A stretch of 64,000 nt of DNA. Origin: Bacteroidales bacterium (GTDB lineage Bacteria > Bacteroidota > Bacteroidia > Bacteroidales > UBA932). Where the stretch lies: NCBI GenBank assembly GCA_017445015.1, contig JAFSVL010000048.1, forward strand, positions 19,641 through 83,640, read 5' to 3'. This document shows positions 25,255 through 36,230 of this stretch, one piece after another. Position 1 is the first letter of the stretch. Every line of letters starts with the position of its first letter. The notes beneath the pieces were generated by a model that saw only the letters and a list, made by a program, of their open reading frames with translations, had not been told where the DNA came from and ran no database searches. Made by a program: the position numbers and the translations under genes.

Positions 25255-26112
25255 ATGAAATTCACTCTGGGCGTAGAAATAAAGCCGGCCGCGCGCCGAA
25301 TCGCCATCGACGAGCCGGTTCTTCTGCTGGGAAGTTGCTTTTCAGACAGTATCGCCGCGCGGATGAAAGCCTCCGGCATGCCGGTCTGCGCCAATCCCTT
25401 CGGGACGCTTTATAACCCCGAATCCATTGCGTCGGCGCTCGAACGCCTGGAGAGCGGAAGGCCATTCGGCGAAGCGGACTGCATGGAAATGGGATCGGGT
25501 GCCGGGAAAATCTGCTCCTTCCACCATCACACCTCCTTTGCGCGCGAAAGCGCCGATGCATTTTTACAAAACGCCAATGCGTCGCTGCTGGAGGCCGCCG
25601 GGGTATGGAAGCAAAGCCGGGTTCTCATCGTGACCCTGGGGACGGCGATGGTCTGGCGGCGGCTCGAAAACGGAGAGGCTGTAGCCAACTGCCTGAAAAG
25701 ACCGGGCGGTGAATTTACCCATGAAATGCTGTCTGTCGCCGGAGTATCCGCGGCACTGCGGCGCATCATCGCACTGGCCGGCGGCCGGAGCGTCATTTTT
25801 ACCGTCAGCCCCGTCCGTCACCCGGGCGAAGGCCTCCACCGCAACAGCCTGTCCAAAGCGACGCTTCTGCTCGGCCTCGAAGAAATCCTCCCGTCCACCC
25901 CCGGTGCCACGTACTTTCCTGCCTACGAAATCGTACTGGACGAGTTGCGGGATTACCGCTTCTTCGCAGAGGACTTCTGCCATCCCTCAAAAATCGCCGC
26001 CGATTATGTCTGGGAGCGTTTTTGCGACGGCTTCCTGACCCCCGAAGACAAAGAAAAGGCGCGCCTTTTGGCAAAGCGCGCCCTTTCCGCAGGTCACATA
26101 CCGTTTAAATAA
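25255..26112 (+). CDS. GSCFA domain protein
   Basis: 285 residues of the GSCFA family, named for the motif seen here as LLGSCFSDSIAARM (about residues 24-37), with the second block NPFGTLYNPESIA and the HHTSFA and FTVSPVRHP motifs. The Ser in GSCFS and the Asp/His near the C-terminus (RFFAEDFCHPSKIA) suggest an SGNH-hydrolase-like fold, with a possible role in acetyl or acyl transfer or hydrolysis. The exact substrate is unknown. It is expressed from the shared divergent promoter and followed by a structured repeat. Confidence 0.9.
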   Translation: MKFTLGVEIKPAARRIAIDEPVLLLGSCFSDSIAARMKASGMPVCANPFGTLYNPESIASALERLESGRPFGEADCMEMGSGAGKICSFHHHTSFARESADAFLQNANASLLEAAGVWKQSRVLIVTLGTAMVWRRLENGEAVANCLKRPGGEFTHEMLSVAGVSAALRRIIALAGGRSVIFTVSPVRHPGEGLHRNSLSKATLLLGLEEILPSTPGATYFPAYEIVLDELRDYRFFAEDFCHPSKIAADYVWERFCDGFLTPEDKEKARLLAKRALSAGHIPFK

Positions 26113-26167
26113 TAAGCAAATCGCCCGCCTATCCTCCGCCTCACAGGACAAGGGTGCAAGTGAAAGG

Positions 26168-26252
26168 GCAACTGAAGTCTGTGGCGTTAGGGCGCATTTA
26201 CCCGGATAGGGTTGCGAAGCAACAAGCGCCCGTTGCCGCAGACTTCAGTTGC
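26168..26252. repeat. Structured palindromic repeat, copy A
   Basis: An 85-bp nested inverted repeat between the GSCFA and GIN genes. The outer arms are GCAACTGAAGTCTGTGGC (26168-26185) and its near-perfect complement at 26235-26252. The inner arms are GGGCGC and GCGCCC, and the apical hairpin is GTTGC-GAA-GCAAC (26211-26223). The core ATTTACCCGGATAGGGTTGC recurs in copy B at 34515-34637 on the opposite strand with different arms. It may also act as a terminator for the convergent genes. Confidence 0.75.
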
Positions 26253-26266
26253 CGGCGAAGCAGCCT

Positions 26267-26980
26267 TTATTCTGTTTTAATGCGTCCGATGCCGTTGATG
26301 GAAGAACGGACATTCCTGCAGTCCAGTTTCGAGACGTCAATTCCGCCGGCACCGTTGAGTTTCAGACGGGCGTCGTCGCTGCGGCCCTCGTAGGTGGCAC
26401 CTCCGACACCGTTGACGCTACCTTCCAGCAAACCGGCACAATCGAGCCCGGTCACATCCAGGGAACCTGCGCCGGAAACGGAAGACTTCATCCCCTTGCA
26501 GCGGACGGAATTCACAGTGAGGTTGCCGGCTCCGCCCAGTTTCAGCGTCACAGCGTCCGCCTCGATATCAGAGATTTGCGCCTCCCCGGCACCGGTAAGC
26601 TTCAGGGAGAAGTCATCGTTGCTGCGGATATTCCCGTGGGAACGGAAATTCACGGCGCCCGGCAAATCGATGCGGGAAATGTGCCGCGACCCCACCCGCA
26701 CATGGATACGGCGGATATTCCTGAGCGACGACCCCTTCTTCATGCCGATGGAAAGGACCCCGTCCTTCTCGACGACCTCAACGGCCTCCAGAAGTTCCTT
26801 CGTCGCACCGCTCAGTTCCAGATACGGCGCCACGCCGCACTGGTAATCGATTTTAGCGGAGAGCGACACGACCAGCGCGTCAAAGTCCTTCACACCGACG
26901 GGAAGCACTTCGTTCTCATCGACGGCGAAGGCGCAAACGCTCAGCGCGAGAGCGGCGAGACATGCAAAAAACCTATTCAT
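26267..26980 (-). CDS. Secreted head-GIN domain protein (DUF2807-like)
   Basis: 237 residues. A signal peptide (MNRFFACLAALALSVCAFA) is followed by a repetitive beta-rich domain of the DUF2807 / putative auto-transporter adhesin, head GIN type: G-I-N/G-A-G turns recur about every 20 residues (LPGAVNF, LTGAGEAQI, LGGAGNLTV, VSGAGSLDV, VNGVGGATY, LNGAGGIDV, INGIGRI). It is a periplasmic or surface protein of unknown role. The start overlaps the yebC stop by 8 nt, so it is the third gene of a TPR-yebC-GIN operon. Confidence 0.85.
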   Translation of the reverse strand: MNRFFACLAALALSVCAFAVDENEVLPVGVKDFDALVVSLSAKIDYQCGVAPYLELSGATKELLEAVEVVEKDGVLSIGMKKGSSLRNIRRIHVRVGSRHISRIDLPGAVNFRSHGNIRSNDDFSLKLTGAGEAQISDIEADAVTLKLGGAGNLTVNSVRCKGMKSSVSGAGSLDVTGLDCAGLLEGSVNGVGGATYEGRSDDARLKLNGAGGIDVSKLDCRNVRSSINGIGRIKTE

Positions 26981-27725
26981 CGGCGGGCTTCATCGTGGTA
27001 TAGACGTTGGTCACATCCTCGTCGTCCTCCAGGAGGCCGGTGAGTTTGTCCAGCGTGGCGCGCTGATCCGGTGTCACTTCCTTGAGGTCCACATTGGGAA
27101 TCTGCTCGAATCCGCCGGAAACCAGTTCAAATCCGTTTTCCTCGATGTATTTCTGAATCTGGCCATAGGCGGAATACTCTCCGTAAATCACGATGACCTT
27201 GTATTCGTTGCCCTCCTTGTCCTCCTCGGTCTGCTCGAAGAGTTCCTCCACGCCGTAGTCGATCATCTCGAGTTCCAGTTCCTCGAGGTCCATCCCCTCC
27301 TTCTCCTTGATGGTAAAGGTGCACTTGCGGTCGAACATGAAACCCACGGAACCGGTGGTCCCGAGCGAACCGCCGCATTTGTTGAAATAAGAGCGGACAT
27401 TCGCCACGGTGCGGGTATTGTTGTCCGTCGCCGCCTCCACGAGGTACGCGATACCGAAGGGGCCGAAACCCTCATAGATGATTTCCTTGAAATCGCCCTG
27501 TTTGCTCTCGGTCGCCTTCTTGATGGCGCGTTCGATGTTCTCCTTGGGCATCTGCTCGCTGCGGGCCTCCGCCATCAGGGCACGCAGGCGGGGGTTTCCC
27601 GTCACGTCGGGACCGCCCTGCTTGACCGCGATGGTGATTTCCTTTCCGAGTTTGGTGAAGGTCCGGGCCATGTGGCCCCAGCGCTTCATCTTCCTTTCCT
27701 TGCGGAATTCAAACGCTCTTCCCAT
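26973..27725 (-). CDS. yebC: YebC/PmpR family protein
   Basis: 250 residues, normal for the family. The N-terminus MGRAFEFRKERKMKRWGHMARTFTKLGKEI is typical of Bacteroidetes members (others begin with AGHSKW). It contains LRALMAEARSEQMPKENIERAIKKA and YEGFGPFGIAYLVEAATDNNTRTVANVRSYFNK, the most conserved block. Family members are DNA-binding regulators in some bacteria, and some (YebC2/TACO1) relieve ribosome stalling at polyproline. Which applies here cannot be decided from sequence. It lies 3 nt after the TPR gene and overlaps the GIN gene. Confidence 0.95.
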   Translation of the reverse strand: MGRAFEFRKERKMKRWGHMARTFTKLGKEITIAVKQGGPDVTGNPRLRALMAEARSEQMPKENIERAIKKATESKQGDFKEIIYEGFGPFGIAYLVEAATDNNTRTVANVRSYFNKCGGSLGTTGSVGFMFDRKCTFTIKEKEGMDLEELELEMIDYGVEELFEQTEEDKEGNEYKVIVIYGEYSAYGQIQKYIEENGFELVSGGFEQIPNVDLKEVTPDQRATLDKLTGLLEDDEDVTNVYTTMKPADE

Positions 27726-27728
27726 AGC

Positions 27729-28403
27729 CTATTCCTCCGTGGACGTGATGAATTTATCGATATCGTAAGCCTCGATGGAAGCCGGATATTTGTCCTTGAT
27801 GCTTTCGAAGCACTTGAGCGCTTCGGCGCCCTTGCCCGACTCACGCAGCGCGAGGCCTTCCTTCAGCAGGTAGGCGGCGGCAAAATCATTGTCGGCGGCA
27901 GCGGCGGCTTTCCTGAAAGCAGCGGCGGCGGCGGCGTAATCTTCAAGACCGACATAGGCGTCGCCCAGACAACCCAGCGCACGGGCGGTCATAACCGGAT
28001 CTTCACCGCTGTACTTCTTGAGGTAATCCACCGCATCCTCGAAGCGTTCGAGGCGCAGTGCACAGATTCCGGCGTACAGATACACCGCGGTGCCGGCCTT
28101 GGTGCCGTACTCGTCGATCACGGCTGCGAATCCGAGGGTGTTGTCATCCCCGTCCAGGGCCAGTTCCCAGTCCTCCGCCTGGAAATTGAGTTCGCAGGGA
28201 TAGCACTGTGCCATCGCTTCTTCCACACGGGGCTGCCAGATAAACTTGTAATAGCCGAGGATGCCCAGACCGACGATGACGACGGCAGCAAAGACGCTCC
28301 AGATGGTCTTCTTGTTTTCGTTGTAAAATTGCTGGGCGGAAGAAACGGTCGCCTCGATATTCTCCTGACGGATTTCTTCCTGGGTTTTCTTTTGGGTTGC
28401 CAT
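27729..28403 (-). CDS. Membrane-anchored tetratricopeptide repeat protein (YfgM/TPR-like)
   Basis: 224 residues. A short cytoplasmic N-terminus is followed by one transmembrane helix (about residues 34-53, IWSVFAAVVIVGLGILGYYKF), then TPR-like helical repeats with A-x-A-L-G and G-DAY-GLEDYAAAAAAFRKA patterns. The layout matches YfgM-type or Bacteroidetes TPR proteins thought to act with the Sec translocon or envelope complexes. First gene of the TPR-yebC-GIN operon, behind a perfect-consensus promoter. Confidence 0.85.
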   Translation of the reverse strand: MATQKKTQEEIRQENIEATVSSAQQFYNENKKTIWSVFAAVVIVGLGILGYYKFIWQPRVEEAMAQCYPCELNFQAEDWELALDGDDNTLGFAAVIDEYGTKAGTAVYLYAGICALRLERFEDAVDYLKKYSGEDPVMTARALGCLGDAYVGLEDYAAAAAAFRKAAAAADNDFAAAYLLKEGLALRESGKGAEALKCFESIKDKYPASIEAYDIDKFITSTEE

Positions 28404-28436
28404 TATGTTTTGTTTTTAGTTTTTTTCGTTAGCCTG

Positions 28437-28467
28437 CAAATTTAGGCATTTTTTGTATATTTGCAAA
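28437..28467 (-). promoter_or_regulatory. Consensus promoter of the TPR-yebC-GIN operon
   Basis: The minus strand carries TTTG (28467-28464), a 19-nt spacer and TAAATTTG (28444-28437), an exact match to the Bacteroidetes -33/-7 consensus. The -7 box ends 33 nt upstream of the ATG at 28403. It physically overlaps the recF promoter on the other strand. Confidence 0.85.
28456..28463 (+). promoter_or_regulatory. -7 box of the recF promoter
   Basis: TATATTTG matches TAnnTTTG and ends 6 nt before the recF ATG at 28470, predicting a nearly leaderless mRNA. Only a weak -33 (CCTG) stands 19 nt upstream. It directly abuts the -33 box of the divergent TPR promoter. Confidence 0.65.
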
Positions 28468-28469
28468 GT

Positions 28470-29573
28470 ATGCCGACGCTCCAAAAAATAGTCATCCGCG
28501 ACTTTCGGAACATTGCCCTTCAGGAACTCGCGTTCTCGCCGAACGTCAACTGTATCTGCGGCGGAAACGGCGAGGGAAAGACCAACCTGCTGGACGCCAT
28601 CTGGTACCTTTCCATGACGAAAAGCGCCTTTTCGGGAGGTGAACGCTTCAACTTCCGCCACGGCTGCGACAGTTTCGAAATCGGCGGCACATACACGATG
28701 GAGGGGAACCTCACCGCACGCTTTTCCGTCAGGAGCAATGCGGGCGGAGAAAAAATTTTCAAGCGCGACGACAAGGCCTACGACCGGATTTCCCGCCATA
28801 TCGGCGTACTTCCCGTCGTCATGGTCTCCCCCGCCGACATCGCCCTGGTGAGCGATTCGGGCGACGAGCGGCGGCGCTTCGTCAATACCGTCCTTTCACA
28901 GATGGACCCCGTCTATCTCGACGCCCTCCAGCAATACAACCGCCTGCTGCTCCAGCGCAACAAACTGCTCAAGGCCGATGTGCGGGATTCCGCGCTCCTG
29001 CAGGTTTTCGACGAAAAGATGGCCATCCTCGCCGGCCCGGTGTTCGAACGCCGGGAACGCTTCGCCCAGGGGCTGGTAAGTGTTGTCAGCGAATACTATA
29101 CGCGCATCTCCGGAGGGAAGGAGCAGGTAGGCATCGAATACCGCTCGGACCTGCGTAAAGGGCCGCTTGCGGAATTGATGCTCGCCCACCGGGAACGGGA
29201 TTTCATTTTCAAATACACCACCTGCGGCCTTCAGCGGGACGATTTCATCTTTACGATGGACGGCTGGCCGATCCGCCGCTGCGGTTCCCAGGGGCAGCAG
29301 AAATCCTTCCTTGTCGCCCTCAAGTTCGCCCAATACGAGCTGATGCGCCGCGGAGGCGGCCCCGCCCCCGCACTGCTGCTGGACGACCTCTTTGACAAAC
29401 TCGATACCGGCCGCGTCGCCAACCTGCTCTCGATGGTTTCCGCCAGCGATTTCGGCCAGATTTTCATCACCGACACCCATCGGGATCGTCTCAGCCCCAT
29501 CATCGACTCCCTGACCGGGGAGCGCGCCTATTTCGAAACGCACGAAGGCACATTTACCCGTCAGGATGGCTGA
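28470..29573 (+). CDS. recF: DNA replication and repair protein RecF
   Basis: 367 residues. ATG 28470 is preferred over an in-frame TTG 9 nt upstream. Motifs of the SMC-like ATPase are Walker A GGNGEGKTNLLDAI (residues 31-44), the signature GSQGQQKSFLVALKFAQ and Walker B ALLLDDLFDKLD, with the D-loop after it. RecF loads RecA with RecO/RecR at gaps in DNA. Overlaps the next gene by 8 nt, forming a recF-DUF721-pdxB-sialidase-like run. Confidence 0.97.
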   Translation: MPTLQKIVIRDFRNIALQELAFSPNVNCICGGNGEGKTNLLDAIWYLSMTKSAFSGGERFNFRHGCDSFEIGGTYTMEGNLTARFSVRSNAGGEKIFKRDDKAYDRISRHIGVLPVVMVSPADIALVSDSGDERRRFVNTVLSQMDPVYLDALQQYNRLLLQRNKLLKADVRDSALLQVFDEKMAILAGPVFERRERFAQGLVSVVSEYYTRISGGKEQVGIEYRSDLRKGPLAELMLAHRERDFIFKYTTCGLQRDDFIFTMDGWPIRRCGSQGQQKSFLVALKFAQYELMRRGGGPAPALLLDDLFDKLDTGRVANLLSMVSASDFGQIFITDTHRDRLSPIIDSLTGERAYFETHEGTFTRQDG

Positions 29574-29898
29574 ATACCGCATTCACCGGAAAGAGGCCCT
29601 GAGCATTGCGCAGGCCATCAGGCTCTGGATGAAAAGCGAACATCTCGGAGCCACCTTCAACACACGGCGTATCTTTAACGCCTGGGACCAGGTCTCGGGA
29701 GCGGCGGAGTACACCCTGAAACGCTATTTCCGGGACGGAACGCTGCATATCACGCTGAGTTCTTCCGTGGTACGCAGCCAGCTCTCCTTCCAGAAAGAAG
29801 CCCTGATTGAAAAACTGAACCGGACCCTGGAACAGGATGAACTCTTCGATCCTGAAAACCAGACGGTCTCGCGGGTCCGGGAACTCAAACTGAAATAA
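29566..29898 (+). CDS. DUF721 (DciA-like) protein
   Basis: 110-residue protein of the DUF721/DciA-related family. The Bacteroidetes form is recognisable by ALSIAQAIRLWMKSEHLGATFNTRRIFNAWDQVSGA, followed by a small beta-strand module (YFRDGTLHITLSSSVVRSQLSF) and the RELKLK end. Related DciA proteins load the replicative helicase in bacteria that lack DnaC. The direct overlap with recF by 8 nt fits a replication or repair role, which remains inferred. Confidence 0.88.
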   Translation: MAEYRIHRKEALSIAQAIRLWMKSEHLGATFNTRRIFNAWDQVSGAAEYTLKRYFRDGTLHITLSSSVVRSQLSFQKEALIEKLNRTLEQDELFDPENQTVSRVRELKLK

Positions 29899-29914
29899 GA
29901 AGCTGTTTTGAATC

Positions 29915-30949
29915 ATGAAATTCGTCATCGACAAGGATATCCCCTTCATCAAAGGCGTATTCGAACCCTGGGCCGAAGTGGTGTACCTCGAGGGAAGTGC
30001 CATTGCGCGCGTGGACCTGCTGGACGCTGACGCTTTGATTATCCGCACGCGCACGCGGTGCGACGCCGCCCTGCTCGCCGGAACGGGCGTCAAGATCATC
30101 GCCACCGCCACCATCGGTTTCGACCATATCGACCTCGATTACTGTGCCTCCAAAGGCATCTACGTCCGCAATGCCGCCGGATGCAATGCAGGCGGCGTCA
30201 TGAATTACGTTTTTTCCGCCCTGTACGGTGCCGCCGCCAGAAAAAGCATACCGCTGACAGGGGCGACTTTCGGCATTATCGGCGTAGGGAATGTGGGCAA
30301 GCGCATCGAACGCATGGCGCGGCAACTGGGATTCAAGGTGCTGCTTTGCGACCCGCCGCGTGCGGAGAACGAAAATCCCGCGCTTTTCACTCCGCTTGAG
30401 GAAACGCTCGCCGCTTCCGACATCATCTCCCTCCACGTGCCCCTGAATCCCGGCACCCGCGGCATGGCCAATGCGGAATTCTTTGCCCGGATGCGGCCGG
30501 GGGCATTTTTCATCAACTCCGCCCGCGGCGAGGTCGTCGTGGACGAAGACCTGATCGCCGCCTCCGGAAGGCTCGGCCCCATCATCATCGACACCTGGAA
30601 TAATGAGCCGGATGTCAACACACGGCTTGTGGAATGCGCGGAAATCGCCACCCCGCACATCGCCGGGTACTCCTACCAGGGCAAGCAACTGGGAACGCGG
30701 GAAGTGGTACGCGCCACGGCCCGGTACTTCAACATTGAGCCTTTGTACGAGTTCTTCCCCGCCGCCGATGTCAAGGGACTTGAAGCCGTCAAACTCGATT
30801 TCAACGGCAAAAACCAGGGGCAGATCGCCGCCATGTTCCAGTACAACTATCCGGTATTCACGGACGATTTCATCTTCCGCACCAATCCCGCCGATTTCGA
30901 GCGCCTGCGCGACAACTATAAATACCGCAGGGAATTCTTTGCTGATTAA
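29915..30949 (+). CDS. pdxB: Erythronate-4-phosphate dehydrogenase
   Basis: 344 residues of the D-2-hydroxyacid dehydrogenase family, close to PdxB in layout; E. coli PdxB is about 378. The NAD-binding motif GIIGVGNVGKR is at residues 120-130. Catalytic-type residues are the Arg in NSARGEVV, an acidic residue in NNEPDV and the His in TPHIAGYS. A short C-terminal dimerisation part remains. It oxidises 4-phospho-D-erythronate in the DXP-dependent pyridoxal phosphate pathway. The N-terminal IPFIKGVFEPWAEVVYLEG is characteristic of PdxB rather than SerA. Confidence 0.93.
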   Translation: MKFVIDKDIPFIKGVFEPWAEVVYLEGSAIARVDLLDADALIIRTRTRCDAALLAGTGVKIIATATIGFDHIDLDYCASKGIYVRNAAGCNAGGVMNYVFSALYGAAARKSIPLTGATFGIIGVGNVGKRIERMARQLGFKVLLCDPPRAENENPALFTPLEETLAASDIISLHVPLNPGTRGMANAEFFARMRPGAFFINSARGEVVVDEDLIAASGRLGPIIIDTWNNEPDVNTRLVECAEIATPHIAGYSYQGKQLGTREVVRATARYFNIEPLYEFFPAADVKGLEAVKLDFNGKNQGQIAAMFQYNYPVFTDDFIFRTNPADFERLRDNYKYRREFFAD

Positions 30950-30956
30950 AGATACC

Positions 30957-32696
30957 ATGTTGACGTCATTGATTCTTCTCTCTTTGCTGACACTCCCTCC
31001 CGCAGCGGACAGGAAGGGGGCGCCGATAGCAAAAGCGGAGGAATTGAACCGCCACGCAGAGGCCCCGGACTCCCATGCCGGAGAAACGGGAAGGAGCGCA
31101 CTGGAAGTCGATTTCCGGGGCATTTCATATCTCGGTGAAAAGGAACTCGGATACCGTTATCTCGACTACCCGAGGCTCAAGATACTGCCAGACGGGAGTT
31201 ACTTCCTGCTCTACCAGACCCGCGACCAGGAGCGGGGAAAAAACCACGACGGCGTCCTGAGCGCCTTCAGCCGCGACGGACGTACATGGGAGCGCGGACC
31301 GGCACTGTGGGAAAAACGGCCGGTGAGAGACCCGGAGGGCAATCCGGACATCCGCTATTACGCTACCGCCGATGCAATTGTGCTCCAGAACGGAGACCTG
31401 CTGGCCTTCGCGCAGTACCGGCTCCTGAACGGATCGATGAAATACCGCAAGTCCTGGGGACTCGCGATGAAACGCTCGAAAGACCTCGGCAAGACCTGGA
31501 GCGAGGAAACCGAACTCTTCCACGACCGCTGCTGGGAACCCTTCCCCCTCCAACTGCCCAATGGAGAAATCCAGGTGTACCTGACCCATACCAATCACGA
31601 CTGGGACAGGCAGCTCACCGACATCACCCTGCTTCGTTCCTTCGACAACGGCGAAACCTGGACGACGCTCAGTCCGGCGATGCGTTTCGCCGACGGCACC
31701 TCGCGGGCCGACCGCAAATCGGTGGACATGCCGCCCCCGCAGGGCGAAAGCACGGCCCACTTCACCTCACAGATGCCTGCGGCCGTCCTGCTGCACGACG
31801 GGAAGACCATTCTGGCCGCTTACGAATCCGTCCGGCTGGAGCCCTCGCATAAACTGATGCTCTCACTGGGCTGGAACAACGCCTCCTGGCCGCAGGGTAC
31901 CCTCACCGGGACACGGGAAGGTCCGGAAAAGATCATGAAGAACTTCGTCGGCGGCCAGGCCCCCTATCTGGCCCAGTTCCCCTCCGGAGAGACCGTCCTG
32001 TCCTACTGCGGGAACTTTTGGTACATCCGCCTCGCCGACGAACGGGGAAAGGGCCTCGCGAAAGCGCCGTTTTTCTCTCCGGTGAAGTTATATGCCCGCT
32101 GGGGGAACCTGGAAATCGAAAACGCCCACCTGATATGGGCGACCGCCGCCAATGTGCACAAGGATCCCTCGGAAATGTACCTGGTCCGGGACATCGTGCT
32201 GGCTCCCATGCGCCTGAACCACAGGATCCAAGCCCCGTCGCTGAGTCCGGAAATCGACGGAGACAATGCGGACTGGGCGGCGGTGGACGAATCGTTCTTT
32301 CTCGGCAGCGACTCTCAGGCCCAGTGCTGTTTCCGCTTTGCGCAGGACAAAAAATACCTTTATGTCTGCGTCGATTGCCTGGACAGGGAACTTCATGCGG
32401 AGGACATGCTGGACCTCTGCTTTTCAGACGGGAAGGATGCCTCCACCCTTCGTAAAATCACGCTTGCGGCCGACAAGGACGACACCGGGGAACGGCAGGG
32501 AGAAAATGTAAAGGTCGCCATGAAACACTATCCCGGAGAGGGATATGTCGCAGAATTCCGCATCCGGCGCGATGCCCTGCCCATCGCGGGGAAGCGCATT
32601 TTTTTCAACGCCATCCTGAGGAAAGGGACCCTGAAGGATACCTTCAACTTCCGCACCCTCGATAAGGTGGACAACTGGTTCGAGGTAAAGTTGTAA
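30957..32696 (+). CDS. Exo-alpha-sialidase/BNR-repeat protein with C-terminal CBM9-like domain
   Basis: 579 residues from ATG 30957, 7 nt after pdxB; the frame is open further upstream inside pdxB. A short signal peptide ([17 protein letters not shown]) is followed by a six-bladed-propeller-like domain with Asp-box turns ([32 protein letters not shown]) and [25 protein letters not shown] at its start. From about residue 415 a carbohydrate-binding family 9-like domain begins ([20 protein letters not shown], ending [18 protein letters not shown]). It could be a secreted sialidase-like glycosidase or a non-catalytic propeller; the Arg triad of true sialidases was not traced. Odd placement in a recF-pdxB run. 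Confidence 0.75.
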
Positions 32697-32704
32697 AAAA
32701 TACC

Positions 32705-32712
32705 TACCTTTG
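32705..32712 (+). promoter_or_regulatory. -7 box upstream of the decarboxylase operon
   Basis: TACCTTTG fits TAnnTTTG and ends 6 nt before the ATG at 32719, 8 nt after the stop of the sialidase-like gene. No TTTG was seen at the 19-nt distance, so its strength is uncertain. Confidence 0.5.
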
Positions 32713-32718
32713 CATAAT

Positions 32719-34230
32719 ATGTCGATACAACAGGATAAAGCGATACGGCTGGAAGAGCGGCGCGCGGCCGCTTGGGAAGGCGGCGGGGAAAAGCGCATCG
32801 AAGCGCAGCATGCCAAAGGGAAAATGACCGCCAGGGAGCGGCTCACGTTACTGCTCGACGAAGGTTCCTTCGAAGAATTCGATACCTTCGTCCAGCATCG
32901 CTGCACCCACTTCGGCATGGAGGCATCCCACCCTGACGGGGATGGCGTCGTCAGCGGCACCGGCACCATCGGAGGCCGGCCCGTCGCCGTCTTTGCGCAG
33001 GATTTCACCGTGAACGGCGGCTCGCTGAGCAAGACCATGGCGGAAAAGATCTGCAAGGTGATGGACCTGGCGATGAAAACGGGCATGCCGGTCATCGGCC
33101 TGAACGATTCCGGCGGCGCACGTATCCAGGAAGGCATCGACGCCCTCGCGGGATATGCGGAGATTTTTGAACGGAACATCCTCGCCTCCGGCGTAATCCC
33201 GCAGATCAGCGGCATCTTCGGGCCCTGCGCCGGCGGTGCCGTTTACTCCCCCGCCCTTACGGATTTCACCTTGATGGTGCGCGGGACTTCCCACATGTTC
33301 CTGACAGGCCCGGCGGTCGTCAAGAGCGTCACCGGCGAGGAGGTCAGCCAGGAGGAACTGGGAGGCGCCGACGTGCATGCCTCCCGCAGCGGCGTGGCCC
33401 ATTTTGCCGCGGAAAACGAACAGGAAGGCATTGCCACCCTGCGGCAGCTCCTCTCCTTCCTGCCCCAGAACAACCGCTGCGAAGCCCCGGAAAAAGCCAC
33501 GGACGACCCTGCGGGACGCGCCTGCCCGGAACTCGACGGCATCATCCCCGACTCCGCCCAGCAGGCCTATGACATGTATGGCGTCATCGGCAGCATCGTG
33601 GACGACGGGGAATTCTTCGAGATCCACCGTGACTTCGCACCGAACATCATCGTGGGGTTTGCACATCTGGGCAGCAGGAGCGTAGGCATTGTCGCCAACC
33701 AGCCGGCCAAGATGGCCGGTGTGCTGGACATCGGCGCATCGCGCAAGGCCGCCCGTTTCGTACGTTTCTGCGACGCCTTCAACATCCCGCTCGTCACGCT
33801 CGTCGATGTCCCCGGCTTCCTCTGCGGCACGCAACAGGAATACGGAGCCATCATCAGCAATGGTGCGAAATTGCTTTACGCCTATGGCGAGGCCACGGTC
33901 CCCAAGGTGACGGTTACGCTCCGGAAGAGTTACGGAGGCGCCCATATCGTTATGAGTTGCAAACAATTACGAGGAGACATCAACTATGCCTGGCCCTCGG
34001 CGGAGATTGCCGTCATGGGAGCTAAGGGTGCGGTGGGCATCCTGAAAGGGGTCGAGGAAAAGGACTACGAGGCGCTGTTCTGCAACCCGTACCAGGCCGC
34101 GCAGAAAGGCTATATCGAAGATGTCATCCTGCCCCGGGACACCCGGTGGCGCGTCATCCGCGCATTGGCTTACCTGGAGGGAAAGCGGCTGGACCTCCCG
34201 CCCAAGAAACACGATAACCTTCCTTTGTGA
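32719..34230 (+). CDS. mmdA: Carboxyltransferase subunit of methylmalonyl-CoA decarboxylase / propionyl-CoA carboxylase
   Basis: 503 residues, the usual size. ATG 32719 gives the family start [42 protein letters not shown]. The carboxyltransferase N domain has [19 protein letters not shown] and [13 protein letters not shown]. The C domain has [30 protein letters not shown], with the oxyanion-type Gly runs. It moves CO2 between (S)-methylmalonyl-CoA and biotin. With the OadG, biotin carrier and OadB genes behind it, it probably works in the decarboxylating, Na+-exporting direction, as in propionate formation. The stop overlaps oadG by 1 nt. Confidence 0.95.
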
Positions 34231-34637
34231 TGCACGACGGCCTGATTCTCGCGCTTGTCAGCATCGGCGTCGTCTTCGCGGCGCTGCTGATCCTCTACCT
34301 TTTTTACGGGTTGATGGGGAAACTCTTCATGCGGCAGGCTCCTGCCCGGCCCCGGGCTCAGGCTCCGGAGGACGATGAGGAAGCCGTCCGGATGGCTGCG
34401 GCCATCGCCGTCGCCCTGGAACTGGAAAACAGCAGGAAGATTACCATCCACCCCTCCTGTCCTTCCTGGAAAACCCCGGAATACGGTTTCCGGAAAGCGG
34501 TTTCACCCGAAGGGCCGGCAACCCGCGGCGCTGACTGTGTCGGAAGCCCCCTGCGCCCTGTTGCTACGCAACCCTGTCCGGGTAAATGGTCGCAGGGGGC
34601 AACCCGCAACAGTCCTGAGCGCGCAGCGGATTGCTGA
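34230..34637 (+). CDS. OadG-like gamma/delta subunit of Na+-pumping decarboxylase, C-terminus supplied by a repeat
   Basis: 135 residues. One N-terminal membrane helix (about residues 4-28, LILALVSIGVVFAALLILYLFYG) and a short charged region (DDEEAVRMAAAIAVALELENSR) match OadG/MmdD subunits, which are normally about 80-100 residues. From roughly residue 95 onward (codons in 34515-34637) the sequence is encoded by a palindromic repeat: Pro/Arg/Cys-rich and unlike the rest. The natural end was probably near KTPEYGFRKA. The subunit stabilises the complex; the extra tail is likely tolerated. ATG overlaps the mmdA stop (TGATG). Confidence 0.8.
   Translation: MHDGLILALVSIGVVFAALLILYLFYGLMGKLFMRQAPARPRAQAPEDDEEAVRMAAAIAVALELENSRKITIHPSCPSWKTPEYGFRKAVSPEGPATRGADCVGSPLRPVATQPCPGKWSQGATRNSPERAADC
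34515..34637. repeat. Structured palindromic repeat, copy B
   Basis: Overlaps the 3' end of the oadG-like gene. The inner arms GCCCCCTGCG (34546-34555) and CGCAGGGGGC (34591-34600) are perfect. The apical hairpin is GTTGC-TAC-GCAAC (34560-34572). The outer arms 34515-34537 and 34608-34635 are complementary with bulges. Read on the minus strand, its core ATTTACCCGGACAGGGTTGC differs from copy A (26168-26252) by one base, while the flanking arms differ but stay self-complementary. Confidence 0.75.
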
Positions 34638-34655
34638 TTTTCAACGGAAAAGAAT

Positions 34656-35081
34656 ATGAAATATACAATTACGATAGACGGAAAACAATACGCGGTGCAG
34701 GTCAAAAGCATCGTGGGAGACCAGGCGGAGGTAGAGGTAAACGGAAAGTCCTGCAGCGTCAAGGTGGAACAGGCACGCCAACCCCTGCCGGTACAACGTG
34801 CGGCCCAGCCCGCCCCCCTCATGACGGCGGTCCCGCCGGCACAGGCGCAGGTACAGGTTCCTGCAGGCGGAAAGGCGGTCACCGCGCCGCTGCCCGGCGT
34901 TATCATCCACCTGATGGCCGTTCCCGGTCAAGGCGTACGGAGGGGTGACAAAATCGCCGTACTGGAAGCCATGAAAATGGAAAACGACATCCTCGCCCCC
35001 GCCGACGGACAAATCTCGGACATTGCCGTCCATGAGGGAGATTCCGTCCTGGAAGGCGCCGTCATCGCCACAATGGTTTAA
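34656..35081 (+). CDS. Biotin carboxyl carrier protein of the decarboxylase
   Basis: 141 residues. The N-terminal KYTITIDGKQYAVQVKSI is the usual start of this subunit. It is followed by a Pro/Ala/Gln linker (about residues 40-72) and a biotinyl domain. The biotinylation motif is EAMKMEN with Lys107 as the modified residue, then LAPADGQISDIAVHEGDSVLEGAVI. Carries CO2 from the carboxyltransferase to the membrane subunit OadB. Lies 18 bp after oadG and 6 bp before oadB. Confidence 0.95.
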   Translation: MKYTITIDGKQYAVQVKSIVGDQAEVEVNGKSCSVKVEQARQPLPVQRAAQPAPLMTAVPPAQAQVQVPAGGKAVTAPLPGVIIHLMAVPGQGVRRGDKIAVLEAMKMENDILAPADGQISDIAVHEGDSVLEGAVIATMV

Positions 35082-35087
35082 AGGGGC

Positions 35088-36230
35088 ATGGGCAACATCT
35101 TTGACGCATTACAGCAGTTCTGGTCCTTTACGGGCTTTGCGAACATGACCTGGCAGCATTTCGGAATGATTGCCATCGGCATCGTATTCATCGTCCTGGG
35201 CATTGTCAAAAAATGGGAACCGTTGCTGCTGGTACCCATCGGCTTCGGGATGATCGTGGGCAATATCCCTTTCGCCGCCGGGCTGAACATCGGCATTTAC
35301 GAAGAAGGTTCCGTTCTCAATATCCTGTATCAGGGCGTCCGGCAGGGCTGGTATCCCCCGCTGATTTTCCTCGGAATCGGCGCGATGACGGATTTCTCGG
35401 CGCTGATTTCCCAGCCGCGGCTGATGCTCATCGGCGCAGCGGCGCAAGTGGGCATCTTCGGAGCCTATCTGCTGGCGCTGTGGATGGGATTCCTCCCGCA
35501 GGAAGCGGGAGCCATCGGCATCATCGGCGGAGCGGACGGCCCTACGGCCATTTTCCTTTCTTCCAAACTGGCTCCCGAACTGATGGGCGCCATCGCCGTA
35601 TCGGCCTATTCCTACATGGCGCTGGTACCGGTCATCCAGAAACCCATCATGCTGATGATGACCTCCAAAAAGGAACGGCTCATCCGCATGGCCCGGCCGA
35701 GGCAGGTCAGTCACAGGGAAAAGGTCATCTTCCCCATCGCAGGATTCATCGTAACGGCGCTGATCGTGCCTTCCGGCCTTCCGCTGCTCGGGATGCTGTT
35801 CTTTGGGAACCTGCTCAAGGAATCCGGGGTAACCAAACGCCTGGCGCAGACGGCAAGCGGCCCGATGATCGACGTGGTTACGACGCTTATCGGCCTGACC
35901 GTAGGGGCTTCCACCCAGGCCAATGTCTTTATTTCGGGAAGGTCGCTGAAGATTTTCCTGCTCGGCCTGGTTTCCTTTATCATCGCCACCTTCTGCGGGG
36001 TGCTGTTCGTAAAAATCATGAACCTCTTCTGCAGGGAAGGGCACAAGATCAACCCGCTGATCGGTAATGCCGGCGTATCGGCCGTCCCCGACAGCGCCCG
36101 CGTCTCCGAGACCGTCGGCCTGGAAGCCGATCCGGAGAACCACCTGCTCATGCACGCCATGGGCCCCAATGTCGCGGGCGTCATCGGTTCTTCCGTAGCG
36201 GCAGGTATCCTGCTCAGTTTCCTGGGCTAA
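35088..36230 (+). CDS. oadB: Sodium ion-translocating decarboxylase beta subunit
   Basis: 380 residues of hydrophobic membrane protein with about 9-11 helices. Conserved blocks are IFLGIGAMTDFSALISQP (with the Asp thought to bind Na+), GIIGGADGPTAIFLSSKLAPELMGAIAVSAYSYMALVPVIQKPIM, GLTVGASTQANVFISGRSLKIF and GNAGVSAVPDSARVSETVGLEADPENHLLMHAMGPNVAGVIGSSVAAGILL. It decarboxylates carboxybiotin and exports Na+. Last gene of the four-gene operon; ends before a repeat-bearing convergent spacer. Confidence 0.96.
   Translation: MGNIFDALQQFWSFTGFANMTWQHFGMIAIGIVFIVLGIVKKWEPLLLVPIGFGMIVGNIPFAAGLNIGIYEEGSVLNILYQGVRQGWYPPLIFLGIGAMTDFSALISQPRLMLIGAAAQVGIFGAYLLALWMGFLPQEAGAIGIIGGADGPTAIFLSSKLAPELMGAIAVSAYSYMALVPVIQKPIMLMMTSKKERLIRMARPRQVSHREKVIFPIAGFIVTALIVPSGLPLLGMLFFGNLLKESGVTKRLAQTASGPMIDVVTTLIGLTVGASTQANVFISGRSLKIFLLGLVSFIIATFCGVLFVKIMNLFCREGHKINPLIGNAGVSAVPDSARVSETVGLEADPENHLLMHAMGPNVAGVIGSSVAAGILLSFLG

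Follow-up and report, generated by a model that had tools for sequence, protein, structure and literature searches.

Small palindromic repeats with a constant apex and copy-specific arms in a Bacteroidales genome and its relatives

Two repeats in the draft genome of a Bacteroidales bacterium raise a simple question: how can the arms of a hairpin differ in sequence from one copy to the other and still pair with themselves? The repeats, copies A and B, lie on opposite strands of the window, by which we mean the whole stretch of 64,000 nucleotides analysed here. Their shared core, ATTTACCCGGAYAGGGTTGC, is matched exactly at 26196-26215 (+) and 34568-34587 (-) and nowhere else in the window; chance would give 0.01 matches (up to 3 mismatches allowed). 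Both copies carry an apical GTTGC-NNN-GCAAC hairpin, and their arms are self-complementary and mutually different, just as the original prediction, made from the letters alone, had described them. It had found no repeat family to name; likewise, no Rfam family is matched at gathering score in the window.

We hold with moderate confidence that A and B belong to a family of small mobile palindromic elements that spreads as DNA, the apex being recognised or copied and the arms completed by snap-back synthesis or template switching.

The genome (G000) is a draft of 2,302,284 bases in 93 contigs, 79.75% complete. The pattern TTTACCCGGANAGGG has 43 exact matches in it (forward strand 23, reverse strand 20), the reversed-pattern control giving 0, so further copies exist beyond the two first noticed. 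R1, a covariance model of type 1 that we ran on 101 genomes of the genus, finds at least 46 matches in this genome; all R1 counts are lower bounds, because at most 46 candidates were scored per genome. The 43 copies comprise 21 of type 1, resembling copy A, with the layout GTTAGGGCRCA-core-AAGYGCCCGTTG; 21 of type 2, resembling copy B, with the layout CTTCTGCGACCA-core-AGGGAGCAGAAG; and one hybrid of the two (L041+7503). Their constant apex reads ATTTACCC-GGAYA-GGG and then GTTGC-NNN-GCAAC, with a triloop that is GNA in 34 copies, AAA in 6 and something else in 3. Beyond the inner stem the arms vary by copy, intact copies pairing over roughly 15-25 bp, and the element measures about 60-100 bp. 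Conservation peaks at the apex and is lowest at the element ends. By eye, a degenerate second CCCGGAYAGGGTYGCGGAGCG motif stands about 50 bp upstream of type-2 copies at L010, L023, L031, L034 and L041, as if type 2 belonged to a longer composite.

The arms belong together. Compared with swapped arms, 37 of the 43 copies score above the 90th percentile of the control (19.5) and 26 above the 99th (32.5). The six below the 90th percentile (L009, the second copy of L019, the second of L023, L028, L029 and L031) are type-2 copies with lost or degenerate arms, from which we conclude that arms decay. In type 1 (20 of 21 copies, one identical duplicate left out), 93.0% of alignment cells are paired, 18 of 28 pairs show two-sided change and covariation is 0.480, against 0.170 in shuffles. 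In type 2 (15 of 21 copies, the same six left out), the corresponding values are 91.4%, 16 of 27 pairs, and 0.411 against 0.152. None of 500 shuffles reaches any observed pairing or covariation value and slid structures, a second control, score far lower; the same alignments served both to derive and to score the structure, which is somewhat favourable to it. Two-sided change is thus strong, and the flanks of the copies differ, contrary to what the original prediction would have taken as a sign of chance or recent duplication.

In the window, the parts of the two copies are the following.

26168-26252, plus strand: copy A, type 1, whole hairpin (R1 match of 100.3 bits)
26168-26186, plus strand: left outer arm of copy A, copy-specific in sequence
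26190-26195, plus strand: inner stem of copy A, left strand GGGCGC, pairing with 26226-26231
26196-26210, plus strand: conserved core of copy A, ATTTACCCGGATAGG, a CC/GG mini-hairpin with unpaired ATTTA before it
26211-26223, plus strand: apical hairpin of copy A, GTTGC-GAA-GCAAC, with a GNA triloop
26226-26231, plus strand: inner stem of copy A, right strand GCGCCC
26234-26252, plus strand: right outer arm of copy A, pairing with the left outer arm
34533-34612, minus strand: copy B, type 2, hairpin (R2 match of 82 bits)
34568-34587, minus strand: conserved core of copy B, ATTTACCCGGACAGGGTTGC
34497-34637, plus strand: 46-residue C-terminal tail, with stop, of an OAD_gamma (PF04277) reading frame, crossing the copy B insertion

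Across type-1 copies, three of the six pairs of the inner stem marked in copy A show two-sided change. Copy A sits between convergent genes, one of the GSCFA family (25255-26112, +) and one of the DUF2807 family (26267-26980, -); copy B lies antisense to the OadG reading frame and overlaps its 3' end.

Comparison with relatives identifies these hairpins as insertions. The aligned blocks that flank copy A are 18 nt apart in G233, the closest relative found, and about 180 nt apart here; around copy B the spacing is about 14 nt in the sister genome G324 (RUG11938) and about 166 nt here. The oxaloacetate decarboxylase gamma orthologue of G324 stops at SFRKKP, and the frame here runs 46 residues longer, through the element. 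When all 43 copies are compared with the stretches of G324 analysed, 21 sites lack the core (that of copy B among them), two keep it (L014 and one L036 copy) and 20 are not placeable; 21 of 23 placeable sites are therefore free. This repeats, on all copies, a first comparison of 15 loci, chosen for contiguous-looking matches and hence biased towards empty sites, in which the core was absent from all 15. Copies have recently been gained or lost at many loci, and at any single one the difference may reflect loss in G324 instead of gain here.

The junctions vary. The other L036 copy, near C78:129.6k, is a clean 71-nt insertion with respect to L343, with flanks 99.3% identical, and includes a 12-bp direct duplication, GGCTGAAGCCTC. 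At L164/L146, a 76-nt insertion shows no visible duplication. At L249, the element has replaced about 12 host nucleotides, which G005 and the more distant G062 keep. Such a range (+12, none visible, about -12) is unlike a transposase with a fixed duplication. Target duplication was set aside as a general rule, L036 being its one convincing case: flanking direct repeats of at least 9 occur in 3 of 43 copies and 6 of 400 controls, and by eye the two besides L036 look unrelated to duplication.

L343 (RUG11938 CACYHC010000015.1) and G000 C78 are about 98-99% identical near L036, other placeable loci being about 76-95% identical, which suggests recent gene flow between the sister species. Element pairs about 1 kb apart (five regions, L111-L115) were considered as ends of an autonomous transposon and rejected, because the intervening gene, judged by eye, looks like purM in three regions and like two other, unrelated genes in the remaining two.

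What is the origin of the matching arms? Orthologous copies of G020, G107 and G117, set side by side in nine comparisons (three of them from one locus, with the pairs defined by folding one member), show 16 changed pairs: nine are broken, three have become G-T, two have become Watson-Crick and two have changed on both sides, both in one comparison. Paired change within a locus, which selection for structure would lead one to expect across species, is thus limited to 2 of 16 changed pairs. Since pairing mostly decays in place, the covariation among copies seems mostly to arise at copying. The original prediction had left two options, selection on the structure or a hairpin-based copying mechanism. 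The latter fits better; a structure kept in place by selection sits badly with nine broken pairs out of 16, with the indifference to strand described below and with 21 free sites out of 23.

At L249, filled in G061 and empty in G005, the source of one arm can be read directly. The left arm, GCAGAAGGCATGGGCC, is host coding sequence, which empty G005 shares at 15 of 16 positions. Inverted, this sequence accounts for the right arm, GGCCTATGCCTTCTG, at 14 of 15; G062 does not carry the left-arm sequence. L250 is a weaker mirror image, with a host-like right arm and a new left one. The AtpG locus, again G061 versus G005, had looked like perfect proof of inverted host copying and was rejected: the inner arm of the element is still present in G005, and the difference is better read as a deletion, explained by the 9-bp direct repeat at L308.

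In the mechanism that we propose, the apex would be the recognised or copied part, most probably as a folded single strand. One arm would serve as template for the other, through snap-back or template switching, and a new copy would be born with matching arms; mutations of one arm would be written into both during copying, host bases beside the site could enter the arms, and the arms would mostly decay after insertion. Movement might be due to a Y1 transposase supplied in trans, or might need nothing beyond the host's own replication and repair. Synthesis of this kind would explain arms matched at birth, compensated differences, host-derived arm sequence and variable junctions alike. Template switching is reported to be able to create, maintain and repair hairpins (PMC8794818).

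Several points weigh against this proposal. Inverted copying is seen cleanly at a single locus, L249, and moderately well at another, L250, the majority of empty sites being too diverged to judge where the arms came from. At L336/L367 the empty site already has an 11-bp palindrome, which favours insertion into an existing palindrome there, and L166/G107 is ambiguous. In an 81-bp class of G107, G117 and G020, many copies share their arms although they lie at different loci, so that fresh synthesis of the arms is not universal. Isolated mismatches in the own copies (34 of 43 used) are G-T in 15 cases and A-C in 5 (p = 0.04), which suits RNA. Finally, no moving enzyme was identified, the search having covered Y1 proteins and neither reverse transcriptases nor DDE enzymes.

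A variant of the proposal is possible, if unlikely: only the hairpin tip of 30-40 nt would be mobile, being added to a host 3' end, folding back and priming on the host strand, with arms made from target DNA and with no transposase of a known kind. A near-perfect palindrome would then be born at every site, and in-frame entry into genes would be possible.

Among the explanations that do not involve arm copying of this kind, we take up first repetitive extragenic palindromic (REP)-like elements moved by a RAYT, a REP-associated Y1 tyrosine transposase, which would recognise the hairpin in its folded form; we consider this doubtful. Matches to PF01797 are present in 45 of 61 genus genomes, and Y1 proteins in 27 of the 28 genomes tested (the 27 with R1 matches, plus G233), the sole exception being G000. 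In G020, about 290 nt separate the end of the Y1 gene from an element. The hairpin tips point the same way, as GNA triloops suit recognition of single-stranded DNA. Mini-hairpins of the d(GCGNAGC) kind are stable. By eye, the 43 copies have no conserved GTAG tag at the stem foot. Y1 was not found in G000 with PF01797, one relative's protein or an 8-row profile, an absence that is not final in a draft 79.75% complete, nor in the sister draft G324, where it is not final either. Of 20 Y1 regions fetched from relatives, two hold the element, at about 0.3 and 2.9 kb and on one side only. The REP/RAYT form of the original prediction, which was to be checked by looking for a Y1 transposase gene in the genome, thus found no support. 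The Y1-like proteins of the genus are diverse, about 290-370 aa long and often several per genome (G068:C6, G007:C75, G020:C58), with an HUH-type motif such as FNHIHFLI.

Insertion into the centre of pre-existing palindromes would give locus-specific arms without any copying, and we regard it as quite unlikely. The 11-bp palindrome of the L336/L367 empty site is what it predicts, and the duplicated target of L036, GGCTGAAGCC, is nearly palindromic; by eye, the empty sites of L249 and L164/L146 have no matching palindrome. The G324 empty sites weigh little here, as they were not folded and several of the alignments are poor.

Of the 61 genomes that make up the relatives set, two have exact matches to TTTACCCGGAYAGGGTYGC: G000 and G028. 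R1 matches occur, patchily, in 27 of the 101 genus genomes, with counts of at least 31 in G117, 27 in G006, 24 in G114, 18 in G107, 16 in G020 and 13 in G019. The apex is spelled mostly GGAYA/GTTGC in the own genome, GTAYA/GCTGC in G020, G107 and G117, GTACA/GTCGC in G019, G061 and G005, and GGACA/GTCGC in G028. A scan of a named genome collection gave at least 106 matching stretches; among the 80 matches listed, almost every title has Bacteroidales or Bacteroidia, one has Schwartzia, and many mention rumen, reticulum, omasum or deer. Among viral contigs the exact pattern has no match, which gives no sign of carriage by phages. No description of this repeat was found in the open PMC literature by title and abstract, and the family, a large one of uncultured gut Bacteroidales, is apparently undescribed.

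Orientation and residence in genes were judged with gene calls from a home-made codon model. With respect to both neighbouring genes, 17 of the 43 own copies are antisense and 14 sense; six lie between convergent and three between divergent genes, two are undetermined and one, copy B, overlaps a reading frame. Element orientation is neutral to the direction of transcription. All judged copies of the own type (42 of 42) and of the GCTGC type (51 of 51) are intergenic or at a gene edge. The GTCGC subtype of the sister species differs, with 44 of 56 copies inside genes, 19 in sense and 25 in antisense, against 15 of 50 for other apex spellings. In the genes for ATP synthase gamma (AtpG) and methionyl-tRNA formyltransferase, the Pfam domains span the insert. 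When filled loci are compared with a relative that has no core match, all length differences are multiples of three at 23 of 23 gene loci, versus 10 of 18 non-gene loci; several of the 23 are the same gene in different species and are not all independent. The difference is at least 45 nt at 15 of the 23 and smaller at the others. An earlier set of 14 hand-picked loci with differences of at least 45 had given 14 of 14, before it was widened to all 41 filled loci.

Some recurrent sites stand out among these loci. In G020, G107 and G117, elements lie within a gene row resembling recO-purM-purH, and at L112-L114, in the spacer upstream of a purM-like gene, three close species have respectively three tandem elements, one plus a degraded one, and two. 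Insertion seems to recur in the linkers of the CysS-like, Fmt and AtpG genes; at L199 (G101), opposite L074, the protein linker that holds the element in other species is occupied by a palindrome whose core is different. The names recO, purM, purH, CysS and peptidase are those that we take the genes to bear, as recognised by eye.

A structured RNA selected at each locus, as a bidirectional terminator, a processing site or a regulator, seems improbable to us. Strong covariation is what such an RNA would show, as is the G-T mismatch excess of the own copies, and some arms (L025, L036, L043, L046) carry, by eye, A and T tracts like those of two-way terminators. Yet the element is indifferent to strand, lies between co-oriented genes and inside coding genes, and is absent from most placeable orthologous spacers; at orthologous sites its pairing mostly decays. 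The window has no Rfam match at gathering score, and a permissive scan of five loci returned one sub-threshold microRNA match. Among clade copies (n = 59), the isolated mismatches are G-T in 20 cases and A-C in 17, so the mismatch counts lean weakly to RNA in the own-copy set only and do not settle the question of RNA or DNA. Strand neutrality, gene-borne copies on both strands and the lack of an Rfam match in the window lean to DNA. Copies A and B as simple terminators were rejected: a terminator pattern scan of 25500-35500 gave 17 sites where 10.2 were expected, two on short stems touching A and none on B, and thus no informative support.

A miniature inverted-repeat transposable element (MITE) moved in trans by a DDE transposase is very improbable: size, copy number and the 12-bp target duplication at L036 fit, but junctions differ between loci, flanking direct repeats are as scarce as noted above, with two of the three looking unrelated to duplication by eye, and a MITE is best conserved at its ends, this element in its centre, with ends that vary.

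Should arm copying prove general, it would be a novelty among bacterial repeat families, to judge by the literature searched. Compensatory change is usually taken to prove that an RNA is functional. In this family, a large set of compensated pairs appears to come from the copying of a mobile DNA hairpin. The family thus warns against passing from covariation to functional RNA, and offers a natural system for testing template switching.

One related known system is quasipalindrome template-switch mutation, which is reported to make and equalise hairpin arms by inverted copying of one strand (PMC8794818). It is mutation at a fixed site, whereas here the process is tied to a conserved, dispersed core. 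MITEs resemble the element in size, in being non-coding and in being dispersed, and differ in that conservation is here central and not in terminal inverted repeats. GTAG-tagged REPs with their RAYT are likewise short intergenic hairpins with many copies in both orientations, and Y1 genes are common in the genus; unlike them, our element has no GTAG tag and no RAYT in this draft or its sister, and the Y1 genes of relatives are not flanked by it. CGTC-tagged REPs are reported from Bacteroidetes among other phyla and are said to have no dedicated transposase (PMC3733652). The 81-bp class of G107, G117 and G020 is similar to them, some copies having CGTCAG ends and lying amid CGTC-like repeats; the window copies have no CGTC at the stem foot, and the core looks unrelated to the CGTC-like repeats beside the relatives' copies (both by eye). 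Around that class, at L130-L160 (for example in the flanks of L134 and L138), there are arrays of GATTCCCGGTCRAGCCGGGAATGACG-like repeats that resemble CGTC REPs.

Rickettsia palindromic elements (RPE) are small palindromic repeats, many of them in frame within genes of unrelated function, according to two reports (PMC10969869, PMC3733652). The gene-borne subtype of the sister species behaves in the same way, lying in frame inside protein genes (44 of 56 copies; 23 of 23 loci), and would extend Rickettsia-type palindromes in core proteins, such as ATP synthase gamma and the formyltransferase, to a large gut Bacteroidales lineage. The likeness is one of behaviour; the phylum is different, the apex is fixed and the arms are variable, and the subtypes of the own genome, with 42 of 42 copies intergenic or at a gene edge, do not share it. 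Altogether, the element works like RPE and REP elements, yet it lacks the defining features of GTAG REPs, of MITEs and, in its window copies, of CGTC REPs.

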